NCBI RefSeq assembly: GCF_000785555.1
Contig: NZ_CP009129.1
Location: 1,426,001 to 1,490,000, forward strand
Origin: Planococcus sp. PAMC 21323
GTDB lineage: Bacteria > Bacillota > Bacilli > Bacillales_A > Planococcaceae
DNA length: 64,000 nt
Direction of reading: 5' to 3'
Below are positions 27,827 through 50,415 of the stretch, one piece after another (the stretch's first letter is position 1; the number at the start of each line of letters is the position of its first letter). The notes under the pieces were generated by a model, which saw nothing but the letters and a program-made list of their open reading frames with translations, was not told the DNA's origin and ran no database searches. The position numbers and the translations under genes were made by a program.

Positions 27827-27870
27827 GAACGTTCGTAAAATGAAATGATACATTTACGAACGTTCTTTTT
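27827..27870 (+). terminator. Intrinsic terminator of LysR gene; family-3-like repeat arms
   Basis: GAACGTTCGTAAA pairs perfectly with TTTACGAACGTTC around a 13-nt loop, followed by TTTTT. The arms contain the same GTTCGTAAA/TTTACGAAC word as the family-3 repeat found elsewhere in the window. Confidence 0.82.
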
Positions 27871-27894
27871 GGGGTTTTATGCTGATTCTATAGT

Positions 27895-27928
27895 GTTCGT
27901 AAAGGTGTACTTTTACGAACGGTTTTCT
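27895..27928 (+). repeat. Family-3 repeat, copy 1
   Basis: GTTCGTAAA - GGTGTACT - TTTACGAAC, then GGTTTTCT. Copies with the same right-hand half (ACTTTTACGAACG) are at 41951, 46045, 47363 and 50386. An in-frame GTTCGTAAA also lies at 27801. Confidence 0.75.
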
Positions 27929-33326: not shown

Positions 33327-34379
33327 TCATTTTTCAACTTCAATCACAATGTCTTCCAGTATCACTTTACCATTCCCTGTCTTGAAATCGGCTATTTTCG
33401 ACTTTGGGATTCCCGCGGTATCCAGTGTCGGAGTAATGAATATCTTTGTGGCATTTGGGTCTAATTTGGTGAACGTCGTACTCCAGTTCATATGAGCCAA
33501 ATCAGAACCATAACCCCCATTTCCTTGACTGGCATAGACGTTTCCTAAATCGTCTTTTACTGTCAGATCCACAGTCGACTCTTGGTTAATTGAACTGGTT
33601 TCTTCTATGCTTTGTTCGTAATAAATCGTAAATCCATAGGGAGTGGAGATCACTTTATCGACCATCACTTGAACGTCTCCCAGCTGGCTCACTTGATTCA
33701 CGACTTTGGTCTTACGGTCCGGTGCAGCTATTGTAAAGTCGAACTGCCAATCGCCTTTGATTTCCTTAGCGTTTTCCCCGTTGTATACCGTGAAACTGCC
33801 AACATCCCAAGTGATATCGGCTATGTCCAAGTTTTCACCCTCTAGCGCGCTTCCGGTCATCATGCCCTTGTATTCACGGGCGTTTACTTTCCTGATTTCT
33901 GAACTGCCGCCCAGTGCATGGACTCCTTTGATATCAAATTGGTTTGTTAAGGGATGATCTCCTAAATCGTAGTCGCTATGGATGGTGAATGTGAGTGTAG
34001 CCGTTTCGCCATCGAAAATGGCATCATTCAACATCACTTTGATGCCATTGCTTTCTTCGACCATACCCAGCGGTGTAGAGTGGACTTTGTAGTCGTCATA
34101 AAACCCTGTTTTTTCATCATCAAAGTACGTAAACAGGTTTCCGATTAACGGAATTTGGCTGGCTGCTTGCGGAAATGAAAAACCGGCAGCTACTGTAGAA
34201 AATCCAACGATCACCGCAGCGGCAACGATTCTCTTTGTCCTACGCACCGGCTGCTGTTGCCGGATGCTTTGTTTCAATCGCGTTTTTACGCGGGTGGTTT
34301 CCACTTCGTCCACTTCGGCTTCTTCGAACGCTTCGGCATCTACCTCAAGGCGGCTCAGTAACTGATAAATATCCTTCAT
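33327..34379 (-). CDS. Anti-sigma factor, DUF4179 domain protein
   Basis: A 350-residue protein with a cytoplasmic N-terminal region (about 1-48), one membrane helix (RIVAAAVIVGFSTVAAGFSF) and a large extracytoplasmic domain. The SQIPLIGNLFTYFDDEKTG and TPLGMVEESNGIKVMLNDAIFDG stretches are typical of DUF4179, which is found in regulators of ECF sigma factors. The start ATG overlaps the stop of the upstream gene by 4 bp (ATGA), as in a sigma/anti-sigma operon. That upstream gene is now a chimera (see 34376-35105), so this anti-sigma factor may have lost its partner. Confidence 0.85.
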   Translation of the reverse strand: MKDIYQLLSRLEVDAEAFEEAEVDEVETTRVKTRLKQSIRQQQPVRRTKRIVAAAVIVGFSTVAAGFSFPQAASQIPLIGNLFTYFDDEKTGFYDDYKVHSTPLGMVEESNGIKVMLNDAIFDGETATLTFTIHSDYDLGDHPLTNQFDIKGVHALGGSSEIRKVNAREYKGMMTGSALEGENLDIADITWDVGSFTVYNGENAKEIKGDWQFDFTIAAPDRKTKVVNQVSQLGDVQVMVDKVISTPYGFTIYYEQSIEETSSINQESTVDLTVKDDLGNVYASQGNGGYGSDLAHMNWSTTFTKLDPNATKIFITPTLDTAGIPKSKIADFKTGNGKVILEDIVIEVEK

Positions 34380-35105
34380 GCAAAACTACCTCCTAACTTA
34401 TTCCTTGAACACTTTTCCTGCAGCCGTTTCTTGCCGCGGTAAATCCGTTTGTCAATCGCGGCCTTTGTCAAACCCATGTGGAGGGCGATTTCTTCATTGG
34501 TCATGTCCAAAAAGAATTTCATCACCAAAATGTCCCGGTCCAATACGTTCATTTCCCCGAGGCGGATACCGCTGCCTAGGAGCAGGGAGAGGATGGCTAA
34601 ATCCCGTTCTTTGTCTCGATTAAATCGTTGACGAGAAAGGGCATTTTTAAAAGTGCCCACATACTCCTGTTCTACAAACTGGAGGAAATCATTAATTTTG
34701 TGCTCGTTCAGGATGACGGAGCTGATTTTCTGGGCACGTCGGCTAGCCGTCTCTTTCATCAAGTAATTAAAGAGCAATTTCAACGCATTCACTGAGAGCG
34801 TCACCACGGCGTTGCCGCGCTTTTTCACGGTGTTATTCTCCTGGGTAAGGGATTCTTCCTTCAGGAATTCAATGTAGTGCTCCACGTCCTGCTTCTTCAG
34901 TTCCGCCAAAACGGAATAGGGGATGGAAGCGGTGTCCGTAGCCTCTGCCAGGCCTTCCCGACCGATAGAGGTACTGCAGCAACGTATCCGTGGACAGGCC
35001 AGCCCGCTTTTTAGAGCGGACGTATTCAATGACATAAAAGGGCACGCTTTTCAGATGCGTTTCAATCCGCTGGAGGATCTGGAGTTTTTCGGGTGTCAGT
35101 GGCAT
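34376..35105 (-). pseudogene. Chimeric pseudogene: xerS 5' part joined to ECF sigma region 4
   Basis: The 5' portion is a XerS tyrosine recombinase: from ATG 35105 it reads MPLTPEKLQILQRIETHLKSVP, VIEYVRSKKRAGLSTDTLLQYLYR. There the frame shifts at about 34960, with a deletion of roughly ten codons, and continues in the next frame as EGLAEATDTASIPYSVLAELKKQDVEHYIEFL ... LSRQRFNRDKERDLAILSLLLGSGIRLGE. After SGIRLGE it switches at about 34540 to NVLDRDILVMKFFLDMTNEEIALHMGLTKAAIDKRIYRGKKRLQEK, the region-4 helix-turn-helix of an ECF sigma factor. The rest of xerS (catalytic residues) and the sigma regions 1-2 are absent, so neither product is functional. Confidence 0.82.
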
Positions 35106-35733
35106 ATCATGTAAGCCTTCTTTTAAATAATCCTTTTCATTTGTTCGCAAATTTTAATTTAAGCAAACAATTAAACGGGAAAAGCGATTTATCGAACCGC
35201 TTTTAGGATTCTGCCTTTAAGCGACTTGCAGGAACGTTATACCGTATTAAATGTGCTGGAGAATAAGGGACAGCTGGGACAGGAAGATAAGAAGGCGGAA
35301 GATTTCTTAAAGGTAGAAAAATCGGAAAACAGCCCCTTTATCTGCCTTAAAAGTACCGTTATTAATAAAATGTATTAATGATAGTTAATCGAATAGAATG
35401 CAGCACAAAAACTAACTTGAATTGAAATAGAGAGTACAGAATTTATGCATTGTATAACAATACGAGAAAGATTAAATGGATTTTAAAGAATAAAAAGATT
35501 TTATAATAAATTATAATTTTATTTTTCTAAACTAATTATACTGACAAATTTTCAATTTCAATATGAATATTTAATTATATTATAATGATAATACTGTATT
35601 TTTTATGAATCTTAAGATTCATGACTTTTTTACCGCATTTAAGTAATATAGATGAAGTTGTTCCAATTATTGTTTTAGCTAGGGGGGAATTAATAAAACG
35701 TCTTATTAAGTAACTATAAAAGGGGAAAAAGAG
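35106..35733. other. Intergenic region with a small gene remnant, upstream of the RHS toxin gene
   Basis: An eroded open frame at 35211-35378 reads LPLSDLQERYTVLNVLENKG and continues with acidic/basic residues to TAA. It has no start and no recognised family. It is GC-richer than its surroundings, like the xerS chimera. The remaining 350 bp are very AT-rich and presumably hold the toxin promoter; the toxin gene has AAAAGGGG before its ATG. Confidence 0.6.
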
Positions 35734-38700
35734 ATGAAGAGTATCAAAAAGATTTTAATCTCTGTGATTGTATTTGCGATGATCTTATCGATTGTGCCAG
35801 TCAGTAACTTCGTGCAGGCAGAGGAAGAAAAACAAGTATCAGCTAGTAAGCAAGTTGTAGATGAAAATACTGAAGTCACAGAACTTATTGAAGAGAGAAC
35901 CATCTATTCAAAGACATTCGATAACCATGATGGGACCATGACGACGGAAATTTCCCAATCACCTTTACACTTTGAGCGTGAACCGGGAGTGTTAGAAGAG
36001 ATTGATAATACGCTGACAGCCGTTGACGACGGGAAAATTGAGAATGATAACAATGTATTCAATGTTCAATTTGATGAGGTCAAAGAAGTTGTATCGGACG
36101 GAGTAAGCATCACTGAAGAAGACTACAAAGTGAAGATGAATCTGAACGAGATGGTCATCGAAGATGAAGTCCTTGAAGCAAATCCTTCAGAAGCTGCAAT
36201 CTTAGACAATACAGTCACGTATAAGGATGTTTTTGAAGATATCACCTTGAACTATACTCTGGGTGATGACTTTGTAAAAGAAGATATCGTGATTCAAGAG
36301 AGACCAGAAGCTGGTCTACCAGAAAAGTTTACATATACCATGTCATTAAACGGCCTTGATTACAAAGTCGAAGAGAATCGTATCTATCTGTTTGATAAAG
36401 CTACGCAAGATGTCATGTATGAGATTAGTGCTCCATATATGTATGATAGTTCTAGTCCAGCTGACTTCTCTTATGGTGAAGAGATGATATCTGTTCCGGA
36501 AGAGGCAAAGTCGTTCGATCTAAGCCTTGATGTACGTGAAGAAGGAGACACTTTATTTGTAGACTTGAGACCTGACAAAGAGTGGTTGAACAGCAATGAG
36601 CGTATCTACCCGATTGTCATTGATCCTACCCTCAGTCGTTTCCAAGGAGATAATGTTACGACAGACACCATAACCCGTAGCGGATTTCCAACTCAAGTCG
36701 GAGGGTTGGATACTGAGATCGGAGTAGGGCGGGCGACTACGAATGTTGTACGAAGCTTAGTACGTTTTGATTTATCCTCTATTCCAAGAGCAAGTGATGT
36801 CTTATCAGCAGACCTCAACCTGTATCTTTCTTCTACAAATGGGTCGGCCCCTATCGACGTTTCAGTTCATAGAGTATCAAAGTCTTGGAACGAGTCTGCA
36901 GCGAACTGGACGAATCGTACAAGCACGGATAAATGGCTTACTGCTGGAGGTGAATACTCTACTAACGTATTAGGGCGTGTCAATGGAATCACTACGATTC
37001 CGACTTCGATGGACGCTCGGTTGTTCAAATGGAAGATTCCGTTGATTACAGTGCAAGACTGGGTATCCATCCCAAGTAGAAATCTAGGTTTCTTGCTTAA
37101 GAGTGTCGATGAGAACCAGCCTGTCTATAAAAAGTTCTATAGTAAAGAGAGTACAGTGGGCAATCAATATAAACCGAAGCTTGTCGTAACCTACAAAACA
37201 AGTGCACGACTTGGGTTAGAGGAGTATTGGGATTATGCTTCGCATCCATTGGTCGGTGGAACAAGCTATGTGAACATCGGTACATTGAACAATGTCATAC
37301 AGTACACAGATCTTTCCTTGGCGAACTATGGCGACCTTGGTTTAGGCTTCACTCGGACATATAACAGCAAAGACTCTGAAAAGTCAGCCTTCGGATATGG
37401 ATGGACCTATACAGGGGACGAAAAACTGTATATCAACACACTCCAGACAAACATTGATTATAAAGATGAAGACGGTACGGTGCATGTCTTTGAATGGAAC
37501 GGGACGAAATACTTGAAGCCACAAGGGTTCCAAGGTGAACTGGTCAAAGTTTCGAATACCTTATATGAAATCCGTCATAGAGATGGGCATGTATTGACGT
37601 TCACTGTACGAGAGGACACTCAAGATACAGATGTGAAGGTAGCGTACTTGACGAAGCAACAAGACATACATGGTAATTCAATCACTTATACCTATAATTC
37701 ATTGAACCAGTTGACAAAGATCCGAACGGGTCTAGGTGATGAAGTGATATTGAGCTATCGCAATGGCATGATCGTGAAGGCTGAATCAAAAGGTAGTGAA
37801 ATTATCTATGATTATAACGCTCGACACAATCTCACAACTGTATCCGTCAAGAAGAATGACGCTGAAAACACGACTACAATCTATCGCTATACCAACGACT
37901 TCCTAACAGGCGTTGTGGATCCAAATAAGAATGTCACATCTTTCGAATATACAGACAGCTTCTTGAACACGGTGACAGAACCAGAGTTAGTTGATGGCGT
38001 ACCTTCTACGACTACCTATGAACTCGATAGGAACACCTTGACAGCTCGAACGGTCAGTGGAGAAGGAGAAGAAACCGTTTATGATTTGAATAGCAATTAT
38101 GTTGTTCGAGGAATGTTACAAGGAAACACCCAGACTCTTTATACTTTAGATAATGACTATAGAATACTTACTGAACAGACCACAGTGTTTGGTGAAGATA
38201 GCTATATCAAGAATTATCAATATAATACTGCAGGAGACTTGTTGAAGTGGACAGATTCTAAAGGTGATGTGCAAGTATTCACTTATAATGCCGCAGGGAA
38301 TGTGTTGACAGAGACGGATTCAGCAGGCAACAAGACAAGGAATGTCTATGATGCAAAGAACAATCTAATATCTACTATGACTCCAAAAGGAGAGCGCACA
38401 GAGTTCACATATGATCAACGTGGGGAACTCATTCAGATGAAGTTGCCTTCGGGAACTATTCAAAATTTCGATACGGACTATTTGAACCAACAGAAGAAGA
38501 CGATATATACTGATCCGACTAATGGTGTCACGACTGTAACTGTCCAAGATTTAAAAGGGAACCTACTATCCTCAACAGATGGGAAGGGACAGACTACATC
38601 TTATCGATACAACCTAAAAGATGAGTTGACACAAGTTGTGGATTCAGCAGGAAATGTGACGACTTATACTTACGATAGCAATGGGAATCGTATATCCGCC

Positions 38701-40533
38701 ACAAACGCAGCAGGTAAGACGACTCTTCTTGGGTACACTGGCCAAAACAATGTAAGCAAAGAGACTGATGCGCTAGCAAATACGACACTATATCGATACA
38801 ATGCGGATGGGGAACTCAATCAAATCACGAAAGCGAATGGGGTAAGAATTGGTTATTTAAAAGATGATGTTACATCAACCAGTTATATTACGCTAAATGA
38901 AGCAATCCGATATACAACGAAGGTTGAAGGTTTGACGAACAAAGTCACGAATCATAACTTATTTGGTCAAATCACCACCTATAAAAATTCAGAGGACGGA
39001 TTGTTGGAATCGATTGATTACAATACGCCTTTTGGCACAACGATTGCGTATGCATACAATCAAACTAATTCAGTGTCGTCTATTTCATACAGAAACGAAA
39101 AACTCGACTATACAAGAAACCAAAACGGACTTTTAGAAGCAGTAAGTAAAAATGATGAAATACTTGTTAGTCAAACATACAATTCAAATTCACTTCCAGT
39201 CGCACAGATTTTTTCGAACCAGAGTTCGAAATTAACTCAATATGGTACAGATGCAGCTACTTTGAAATCTGAAGAGCTTCGCCTTAAGGAGACGTCTCAA
39301 TATAATAAATTTGACTATACATTCGATAAAAACTCACAAATCACTCGAATCTCTGATAAACAAGAGGATACGGACTATCAATATGATAAGCTAAATCAAT
39401 TGATCAAGGAATCGTATAGTAATGGGCAGTCTATTGAGTATAAGTATGATTTTATTGGTAATCGTATTTCGAAGAAAAAAACAGTTAACAACTTAACACA
39501 AGAGACTAAATATACCTATAACGAAGCAAATCGGTTGACAGCAGTTGGTACTCAACCTTTGAACTATGATGCAAATGGTAATCTGATTTCAGATGAGAAG
39601 TATCAATATGTGTGGAATGCTTTTGACCAGTTAATTGAAGTAAGAGACAAATCAGGTAAGAGCTTGGTTGTCTATAAATATGATGAGATGGGTAGAAGAG
39701 TCTTTAAAGATGATAAGACAGCCGAGTTATATTATCGATATGATGGTAACAGCAATCAAGTTCTATTTGAAGAAGATGAATACGGTAAAATCATTAGTTC
39801 GTATACTTATGATGATAATGGAATCCCACTAACTTGGACATATAATGGGCAGACCTATTACTATTTGACAAACTACCGAGGCGATATTTTGGCTGTAACA
39901 GACGCGACAAGTAAAGTCGTTGCTGAATATACTTATGATGCATGGGGCAACATATTGTCTCAGTCTGGATCACTAGCGTCAGTCAATCCGTATCGTTATG
40001 CGGGATATCGTTATGACGAAGAGACGAAACTTTACTATTTAATAGCACGCTATTACAATCCGGAAATAGGTGCATTCCTTTCATTAGATCCAGTACGTGG
40101 GGAACTTATGAAACCTATCACCATGAACGGCTACGTTTATGCAAACAATAATCCAGTTATAAATGTTGACCCTGATGGTGAATTTGCACAATTTATTCCT
40201 ATAGGTATTTATTATATATATCAAGGATATAGAGTATATAAAAGTGTAAAGTACATTAAGTTTACAGTTAGTAGTGTTGCAAACTTTATAAAAACAGCAC
40301 CAAGAGTAGGAAGTGCTCTTAAAAGCGATTCATATCATAGAGCGGCAAGCTTTGTTTCCTTAAATCAGCTGAAACGCGGGAAAATATATAAATTTAAAGG
40401 GGGAGATGGAAGGACGTATGTGAAATTAAAGACTAAAGGAGAAGTAAATGGAAAGAAGGGTGTATTTGAGTATATTCTAGACAGTACAGGTAAGGTTACA
40501 CATCAACTATTTGTAATAGGAGGTAAATTGTGA
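35734..40533 (+). CDS. WapA-like RHS-repeat polymorphic toxin
   Basis: This 1599-residue secreted protein has a Sec signal peptide (1-30, ending FVQA-EE), a long N-terminal adhesion region, a DNRLRE domain (about 309-480; TDTITRSGFPTQVGGLDTEIGVG, RFDLSSIPRASDVLSADLNLYL) and the RHS domain from about 505. Many YD/RHS repeats follow (e.g. YTYDSNGNRISATNAAGKT). The RHS core (RYAGYRYDEETKLYYLIARYYN) at about 1420 and the NPVINVDPDGE end mark the border at about 1484. The last 115 residues form the variable toxin domain, including FKGGDGRTYVKLKTKG and GVFEYILDSTGKVTHQLFV; its activity is unknown. It is related to B. subtilis WapA, a contact-dependent toxin. The stop overlaps the next gene's GTG by 4 bp. 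Confidence 0.9.
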   Translation: MKSIKKILISVIVFAMILSIVPVSNFVQAEEEKQVSASKQVVDENTEVTELIEERTIYSKTFDNHDGTMTTEISQSPLHFEREPGVLEEIDNTLTAVDDGKIENDNNVFNVQFDEVKEVVSDGVSITEEDYKVKMNLNEMVIEDEVLEANPSEAAILDNTVTYKDVFEDITLNYTLGDDFVKEDIVIQERPEAGLPEKFTYTMSLNGLDYKVEENRIYLFDKATQDVMYEISAPYMYDSSSPADFSYGEEMISVPEEAKSFDLSLDVREEGDTLFVDLRPDKEWLNSNERIYPIVIDPTLSRFQGDNVTTDTITRSGFPTQVGGLDTEIGVGRATTNVVRSLVRFDLSSIPRASDVLSADLNLYLSSTNGSAPIDVSVHRVSKSWNESAANWTNRTSTDKWLTAGGEYSTNVLGRVNGITTIPTSMDARLFKWKIPLITVQDWVSIPSRNLGFLLKSVDENQPVYKKFYSKESTVGNQYKPKLVVTYKTSARLGLEEYWDYASHPLVGGTSYVNIGTLNNVIQYTDLSLANYGDLGLGFTRTYNSKDSEKSAFGYGWTYTGDEKLYINTLQTNIDYKDEDGTVHVFEWNGTKYLKPQGFQGELVKVSNTLYEIRHRDGHVLTFTVREDTQDTDVKVAYLTKQQDIHGNSITYTYNSLNQLTKIRTGLGDEVILSYRNGMIVKAESKGSEIIYDYNARHNLTTVSVKKNDAENTTTIYRYTNDFLTGVVDPNKNVTSFEYTDSFLNTVTEPELVDGVPSTTTYELDRNTLTARTVSGEGEETVYDLNSNYVVRGMLQGNTQTLYTLDNDYRILTEQTTVFGEDSYIKNYQYNTAGDLLKWTDSKGDVQVFTYNAAGNVLTETDSAGNKTRNVYDAKNNLISTMTPKGERTEFTYDQRGELIQMKLPSGTIQNFDTDYLNQQKKTIYTDPTNGVTTVTVQDLKGNLLSSTDGKGQTTSYRYNLKDELTQVVDSAGNVTTYTYDSNGNRISATNAAGKTTLLGYTGQNNVSKETDALANTTLYRYNADGELNQITKANGVRIGYLKDDVTSTSYITLNEAIRYTTKVEGLTNKVTNHNLFGQITTYKNSEDGLLESIDYNTPFGTTIAYAYNQTNSVSSISYRNEKLDYTRNQNGLLEAVSKNDEILVSQTYNSNSLPVAQIFSNQSSKLTQYGTDAATLKSEELRLKETSQYNKFDYTFDKNSQITRISDKQEDTDYQYDKLNQLIKESYSNGQSIEYKYDFIGNRISKKKTVNNLTQETKYTYNEANRLTAVGTQPLNYDANGNLISDEKYQYVWNAFDQLIEVRDKSGKSLVVYKYDEMGRRVFKDDKTAELYYRYDGNSNQVLFEEDEYGKIISSYTYDDNGIPLTWTYNGQTYYYLTNYRGDILAVTDATSKVVAEYTYDAWGNILSQSGSLASVNPYRYAGYRYDEETKLYYLIARYYNPEIGAFLSLDPVRGELMKPITMNGYVYANNNPVINVDPDGEFAQFIPIGIYYIYQGYRVYKSVKYIKFTVSSVANFIKTAPRVGSALKSDSYHRAASFVSLNQLKRGKIYKFKGGDGRTYVKLKTKGEVNGKKGVFEYILDSTGKVTHQLFVIGGKL

Positions 40534-41096
40534 GCGAGGAGAATGAACAGATTGAAAATAGCTTAAGGATAAAAATCCCATTATCCTTTATTGAAGAATT
40601 GGTCTTATTGAATTGGGAAGAACTATATATGGGTATCAAGTGGAACTATGTATCGCCTGAGGCAGCAATTGAGAAAGCCATTAAATATCTGGATTTTAAT
40701 GATTCTGAAGATATAATAGGTCTAGCAAGTTTATATAGTAATGAAATAAGTTCAGTAAATTATTATCTAACTAAAATTTTATCAAATAACAAATCAACAG
40801 ACATAAAAGAAATACAAGAAAAATGGCTGTATCTAGTTATTTCTTGGCTACGAAAAAATCATGCTAATTATAATATTATCTATGCAGAAGTGAATTATCC
40901 TATCAAGGAATTGTTTGAAAAGATTAGCGTAGTATGGGATGACTTCAAACATCCAGAATCGTTAGGAAAAATTTTCTATAATCAAGAGGTTTTTGATAAT
41001 CAAGACTTTCAAATCACTGAAGCAAACAACACTGAGGATTTTAATGTGTTTTTAAACAATTATTTATCTGAGCAATCTATTCGTTTTAAAAAATAA
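40530..41096 (+). CDS. Probable immunity protein of the RHS toxin (DUF2247-like)
   Basis: This 188-residue, acidic, soluble, helix-rich protein starts at GTG 40530 inside the toxin's last codons (GTGA overlap), with AGGAGG 8 nt before. The features LNWEELYMGIKWNYVSPEAAIEKAIKYLD and EKISVVWDDFKHPESLGKIFYN resemble DUF2247, known mainly from immunity proteins of polymorphic toxins. The position directly after the toxin C-terminus is the standard place for the cognate immunity gene. It should bind and neutralise the C-terminal toxin domain. A terminator follows at 41151. Confidence 0.78.
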   Translation: MSEENEQIENSLRIKIPLSFIEELVLLNWEELYMGIKWNYVSPEAAIEKAIKYLDFNDSEDIIGLASLYSNEISSVNYYLTKILSNNKSTDIKEIQEKWLYLVISWLRKNHANYNIIYAEVNYPIKELFEKISVVWDDFKHPESLGKIFYNQEVFDNQDFQITEANNTEDFNVFLNNYLSEQSIRFKK

Positions 41097-44091: not shown

Positions 44092-44512
44092 GTAGAGACC
44101 GTCAATAATTATGTGTAAATAAGTAAATCCTTTTCTTATATGTATATCCATTAAGCTTGCTTGAACATCTCAGCCAGTTCTGTACGAGCTTTATCGAATC
44201 CGATATGGCATTGGGGAGTGAAGTTCTGATTGTAGATTTCAAACTGGGAAACCAGAAAGCGCTCCAAGGAATCTTCGTTCGGGAATTGCTCCTTGCGCTT
44301 GCTGTATTTTTCCACATTCTTTTTGAACGACTCGATGAGATTCGTTGAATAGATGCTTCGCCAAATGGATTTCGGAAAGTCGTAGAAAGTGAAGATGTAC
44401 GGATTCGCTTCCAACGATTTCGTCATATTGGAAATGGTTTGTGGCTTATAGTGATGGCTGTACATCTTCTAGATCAAATCCGATATCTCGGACATCGTGA
44501 CGCCTTTTTGGA
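44092..44512 (-). mobile_element. IS256-family insertion sequence remnant
   Basis: A terminal sequence, GACCGTCAATAATTATGTGT, typical of IS256 family ends, starts at about 44097. On the minus strand a transposase remnant begins (about 44512) FQKGVTMSEISDLI, has an in-frame TAG, then continues KMYSHHYKPQTISNMTK. It jumps directly to ANPYIFTFYDFPKSIWRSIYSTNLIESFKKNVEKYSKRKEQFPNED, the C-terminal part. About 200 residues carrying the DDE catalytic residues are deleted. The element cannot move by itself. Confidence 0.82.
44151..44465 (-). pseudogene. IS256-family transposase, internally deleted
   Basis: The frame codes for 104 residues with the hallmark IYSTNLIESFKK...FPNEDSLERFL of IS256 transposases near its end. 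The central catalytic part is missing and the N-terminal part is separated by TAG at about 44468. It is a fossil. Confidence 0.85.
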
Positions 44513-50385: not shown

Positions 50386-50415
50386 TTGTTTGTATAGGTA
50401 TACTTTTACGAACGA
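50386..50415 (+). repeat. Family-3 repeat, copy 5
   Basis: TTGTTTGTATAGGTATACTT then TTACGAACGATTATAG. Confidence 0.75.

Follow-up and report, generated by a model that had tools for sequence, protein, structure and literature searches.

XerS recombinases are known from the XerS/difSL systems of streptococci and lactococci (PMC2731167, PMC5357621), in which the xerS gene lies directly beside an AT-rich dif-like palindrome of 31 bp with an 11-bp centre. A second kind of related system is found in the dif modules of Acinetobacter, where plasmids exchange small cargo genes that lie between dif-like sites in inverse orientation, each with a 6-bp spacer; these modules are ascribed to the XerC and XerD of the host (PMC13141974, PMC6449649). 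The locus analysed here lies in a 64-kb stretch (the window) of the chromosome of Planococcus sp. PAMC21323, a strain from King George Island, Antarctica (PMC6225704). At positions 34376-35105 of the window, on the minus strand, the remnant of an xerS gene is joined to the region-4 end, or last third, of an ECF sigma-factor gene. Very probably, this arrangement arose through the arrival of a plasmid piece, a deletion that created the fusion and two further deletions, leaving a pseudogene.

The fusion ORF (34376-35035, minus strand; 219 aa) begins at an ATG that falls within xerS but is not in the frame of that gene. Its middle matches the NCBIfam XerS family NF003462 (E=2.5e-30) and its end the Pfam family Sigma70_r4_2 (E=7.8e-11, above the family cut-off), in agreement with the original prediction, made from the sequence alone, of half a XerS up to SGIRLGE followed by sigma region 4. 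Aligned against intact xerS and the Paenisporosarcina indica sigma gene, the ORF shows XerS homology up to GSGIRLGEM and sigma homology from that point on, which places the joint at 34549/34550 (minus strand), about 10 bp from the predicted position near 34540. The two parts had been described as fused in frame, and this holds locally only. The fusion is not in the frame of the xerS start codon (35105); this codon and the first 48 codons (35105-34962) are read in another one, and the XerS N-terminus sits in a separate ORF (34869-35150, minus strand; XerS E=4.9e-7).

The xerS remnant (34550-35105, minus strand), delimited by its match to NF003462 and by comparison with intact Planococcus xerS (tblastn and DNA alignment), extends from the start codon through GSGIRLGEM and lacks about 150 C-terminal residues of the intact protein. 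Alignment with intact Planococcus xerS reveals three lesions, namely two internal deletions and the truncation at the fusion. The first (34958-34961, minus strand), recognized from DNA alignment with five relatives and from the codon pieces, is a 26-bp net deletion that shifts the frame and removes YQHFFQWLLR; it corresponds to the frameshifting deletion predicted near 34960. The second, seen in DNA and codon alignments at 34756/34757 (minus strand), is an in-frame deletion of 75 bp, which had been missed when only two lesions, both real, were proposed. In the relatives, both ends of the stretch lost in this second lesion are flanked by the 10-bp direct repeat AAAGAGACGG, as expected of replication slippage. 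The intact XerS proteins of the relatives read through all three lesion points. Other decayed copies were also observed: xerS is broken in P. soli (G010), and only fragments are left in three further genomes (G017, G001, G066).

The XerS part of the window scores 105 bits, below the NCBIfam XerS cut-off of 267 bits, compared to 387-430 bits for intact relatives. From the catalytic set (R, K, HxxR, H, Y), only the first arginine (in GIRLGE) is kept, and the intact relatives have the rest. The sigma part comprises the last 57 residues and the stop codon (34376-34549, minus strand) and shares 66% identity with residues 132-189 of the sigma factor of Paenisporosarcina indica (194 aa); region 4 alone is present and region 2 is gone, whereas the Paenisporosarcina protein has both. 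With the first catalytic arginine alone left in XerS and region 2 missing from the sigma part, neither XerS recombination nor sigma activity would be possible, judging from what is known of the two families. The fusion gene is therefore very likely dead. Among intact Planococcus xerS pairs, dN/dS is about 0.03-0.1 over the same codons. With G028 as outgroup, the window branch carries 25 nonsynonymous to 24 synonymous changes versus 6 to 32 for the relative G003 (p=0.0007), an excess that is not significant with outgroups G062 (p=0.20) and G005 (p=0.19). The substitution pattern thus fits, though not strongly by itself, an xerS that was once constrained and was lost fairly recently.

The persistence of a frame that stays open for 219 codons through the joint counts against this account of decay. 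It could suggest a new functional chimera, in which the XerS DNA-binding part would be combined with the -35-binding region 4, perhaps as a regulator kept in check by the anti-sigma factor; the good conservation of region 4 is in line with this, as is the retained overlap (ATGA) between the fusion and an intact anti-sigma gene. Such a chimera is nevertheless very improbable, as the frameshift cuts off the xerS start, the usable ATG has no evident ribosome-binding site, 75 bp are missing from the XerS N-terminal half, and the same fusion was found in none of 60 relatives. Even less credible is an assembly artefact joining two distant loci. Although a single genome of the species was examined, the published assembly combined 454 and Illumina data at 1874-fold depth, with gap closure by PCR and Sanger sequencing (PMC6225704), which makes an artefact at the joint unlikely, and neither missing half is present elsewhere in the genome. 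A search for a full xerS, as had been proposed, returned only the window locus along with XerC/XerD-like and other integrases. Likewise, the sole close match to the Paenisporosarcina sigma factor in the PAMC21323 genome is the C-terminal part at this locus, and no N-terminal half was found. The absence of these halves, together with the intact versions in relatives, supports decay of xerS and the sigma gene by illegitimate deletion, as first proposed.

The gene that follows the sigma remnant is intact. It occupies 33327-34379 (minus strand) and overlaps the sigma part by ATGA, as expected from the original prediction, and it matches DUF4179 (7e-16; 58.8 bits versus a cut-off of 30.1) and DUF5643 (1e-20). 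The encoded protein aligns end to end with the anti-sigma factor of Paenisporosarcina indica at 39% identity. With its domain above the cut-off, its full length and its overlap with the sigma gene, it has the characteristics of a DUF4179 anti-sigma factor, with putative sigma binding. In Paenisporosarcina indica the sigma/anti-sigma pair is intact. Compared to that pair, the window is alike in region 4, in the anti-sigma gene and in gene order, and differs in having a sigma gene without region 2. No second related anti-sigma gene was found in the PAMC21323 genome. The view that the anti-sigma gene is an orphan that has outlived its sigma partner is therefore supported.

Beyond the fusion itself, the analysis provided a third lesion, as described above, and a source for the xerS remnant, neither of which was part of the original prediction. 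P. versutus, P. maritimus and P. lenghuensis have plasmids that encode XerS relatives with 77-86% protein identity. An alignment of 13 xerS upstream regions, the window included, revealed a common palindrome whose commonest form is TATATGTTCGCTTAAATTACATTTTGCGAACATATA. The window copy of this dif-like palindrome (35141-35170, minus strand) has 12-bp arms and a 6-bp centre and is slightly decayed; it is the single match in the 64-kb window, where 0 are expected by chance. It is followed by the 3' end of a fic gene (35180-35205, minus strand; the codons LKAVR and a stop), whose 26 bp match the end of the fic gene next to xerS in G005 at 92% identity. The order fic end, dif-like site, xerS is the order seen on plasmids. 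Further out lies a fragment of an ArdC-like plasmid gene (35206-35329, plus strand) with 85% DNA identity over 124 bp to the ArdC gene of a P. glaciei plasmid. Because of the plasmid relatives, this gene order and the ArdC fragment, the source was likely a plasmid piece that now resides in the chromosome. In a comparison with the near species G030, G014 and G015, the part of the window between positions 29 and 50 kb proved variable, and no precise empty site was found.

Several other elements were noted in the same part of the chromosome. The RHS gene at 35734-40533 was considered as a part of the plasmid piece and rejected: ArdC and RHS genes are neighbours on pKRIBB-KS-1-2, but the protein identity is 28%. 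The region 35734-41096 contains this large RHS/DNRLRE protein gene together with a small gene that overlaps the end of it; the two may represent a polymorphic toxin and its immunity gene. Another palindrome, related to AAAGCGTTCGTAAAAGTGTACTTTTACGAACGCTTT, is present at 27894-27921 and 50387-50414. The sequence AAAGCGTTCGTAAAAGTGTACTTTTACGAACGCTTT occurs near serine recombinase genes on Planococcus plasmids, and collinearity with G014 is broken at 27862/27895, that is, at the first of the related copies. At 44151-44465, a short ORF resembles by eye the end of a mutator-type (IS256-like) transposase and is probably a remnant.

From this evidence the following order of events may be reconstructed. 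A Planococcus plasmid piece carrying fic, a dif-like site and xerS in this order would have reached the chromosome, either landing next to an ECF sigma/anti-sigma operon or bringing that operon along. The fusion would then have come from a deletion that ran from just behind GSGIRLGEM in xerS to around codon 137 of the sigma gene, with loss of the XerS catalytic half and of everything in the sigma gene before region 4. Through two more small deletions, the reading frame and structure of xerS would have been broken. The pseudogene that remained would neither recombine DNA nor act as a sigma factor, next to an intact anti-sigma gene whose partner is gone. In no relative do unfused xerS and sigma genes stand side by side, and so the ancestral order of the two genes is deduced. 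A variant compatible with this history, in which the operon was already beside xerS on the plasmid and the fusion preceded integration, is possible but rather doubtful. The xerS plasmids of P. maritimus do carry sigma/anti-sigma pairs, which are also found close to xerS on a plasmid of Peribacillus asahii, and the GC content of both halves of the fusion is 45-50%, compared to 37% for the window; yet the best relative of the anti-sigma gene on plasmids in the collection reaches 31% identity, and none is close.

The preferred history, with a plasmid piece as the source of the remnant, draws attention to the system from which xerS came. On plasmids and on some chromosomes, a second, inverted site is located 0.2 to 2.6 kb from the site proximal to xerS, with the same right arm and a different left arm and centre. 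The sites are about 30 bp long and have the inverted 11-12 bp arms, the 6-8 bp centre and the position beside a recombinase gene that characterize dif-type sites. All 15 pairs collected, most of them adjoining xerS of the plasmid type, are inverted (L035, L073, L099, L101, L103-L107, L214-L216, L219, L222 and L223), with an imperfect outer arm in two (G025, G021). Fic is the cargo between the sites in most pairs. Other cargo consists of DUF2971 (Planococcus sp. CAU13), DUF3800 with Fic (three pairs), an Ntn-hydrolase-like protein (P. maritimus) and a membrane protein (G007). Fic and DUF2971 match candidate defence families of PADLOC by name. The cargo between the inversely oriented sites thus varies between replicons, as in dif modules, and in several genomes sequence similarity beside xerS stops at the site. 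Of 261 Planococcaceae genomes, 23 contain the consensus site pattern and none contains the reversed pattern used as control. Upstream palindromes were also found at XerS genes of Lysinibacillus, P. lenghuensis and Peribacillus plasmids (L225-L228, L233), and no clear one was seen in Virgibacillus, Sporosarcina or at the more distant second Planococcus XerS (Planococcus sp. MB-3u-03).

In P. lenghuensis and Peribacillus frigoritolerans, a TIR-domain gene and a nucleotidyltransferase/DUF86 pair were observed immediately upstream of xerS on plasmids (L227:2812-5221 and L233:2856-5095). Genes and pairs of these kinds are typical of defence or toxin-antitoxin systems.

The parent system can be compared to both of the described ones. 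As in XerS/difSL, the recombinase belongs to the XerS family, with intact relatives above the NF003462 cut-off, and its gene adjoins an AT-rich dif-like palindrome. Unlike XerS/difSL, the Planococcus-type xerS is plasmid-borne and additional to chromosomal XerC/XerD, the sites read as 12-6-12 bp, cargo lies between an inverted pair of sites, and the window copy is dead. The Acinetobacter modules share with those described here the small cargo, the inversely oriented sites, the 6-bp spacer and the exchange between plasmids; the difference is that a single plasmid-encoded XerS adjoins the module here. On balance, we lean towards the view that plasmids of Planococcus and other Bacillales carry self-contained modules, in which a single plasmid-encoded XerS would act on inverted dif-like sites of about 30 bp bounding swappable cargo, often Fic or another candidate defence gene, and that the window holds a chromosomal fossil of such a module. 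The action of XerS on the sites is a prediction. No description of plasmid XerS modules was found in the open-access literature, and the arrangement of xerS with swappable cargo bounded by dif-like sites on plasmids is apparently undescribed.

Taken alone, the fusion is a dead gene of an ordinary kind, although it clearly documents how decay proceeded step by step through deletions; the locus also records an anti-sigma gene persisting after the loss of its partner. Its wider importance is as a pointer to a conserved link between xerS, a dif-like site and exchangeable cargo in plasmids from Planococcus and certain other Bacillales. Should XerS indeed act on these sites, dif modules would extend beyond systems that depend on host XerC/XerD, of which Acinetobacter provides an example.
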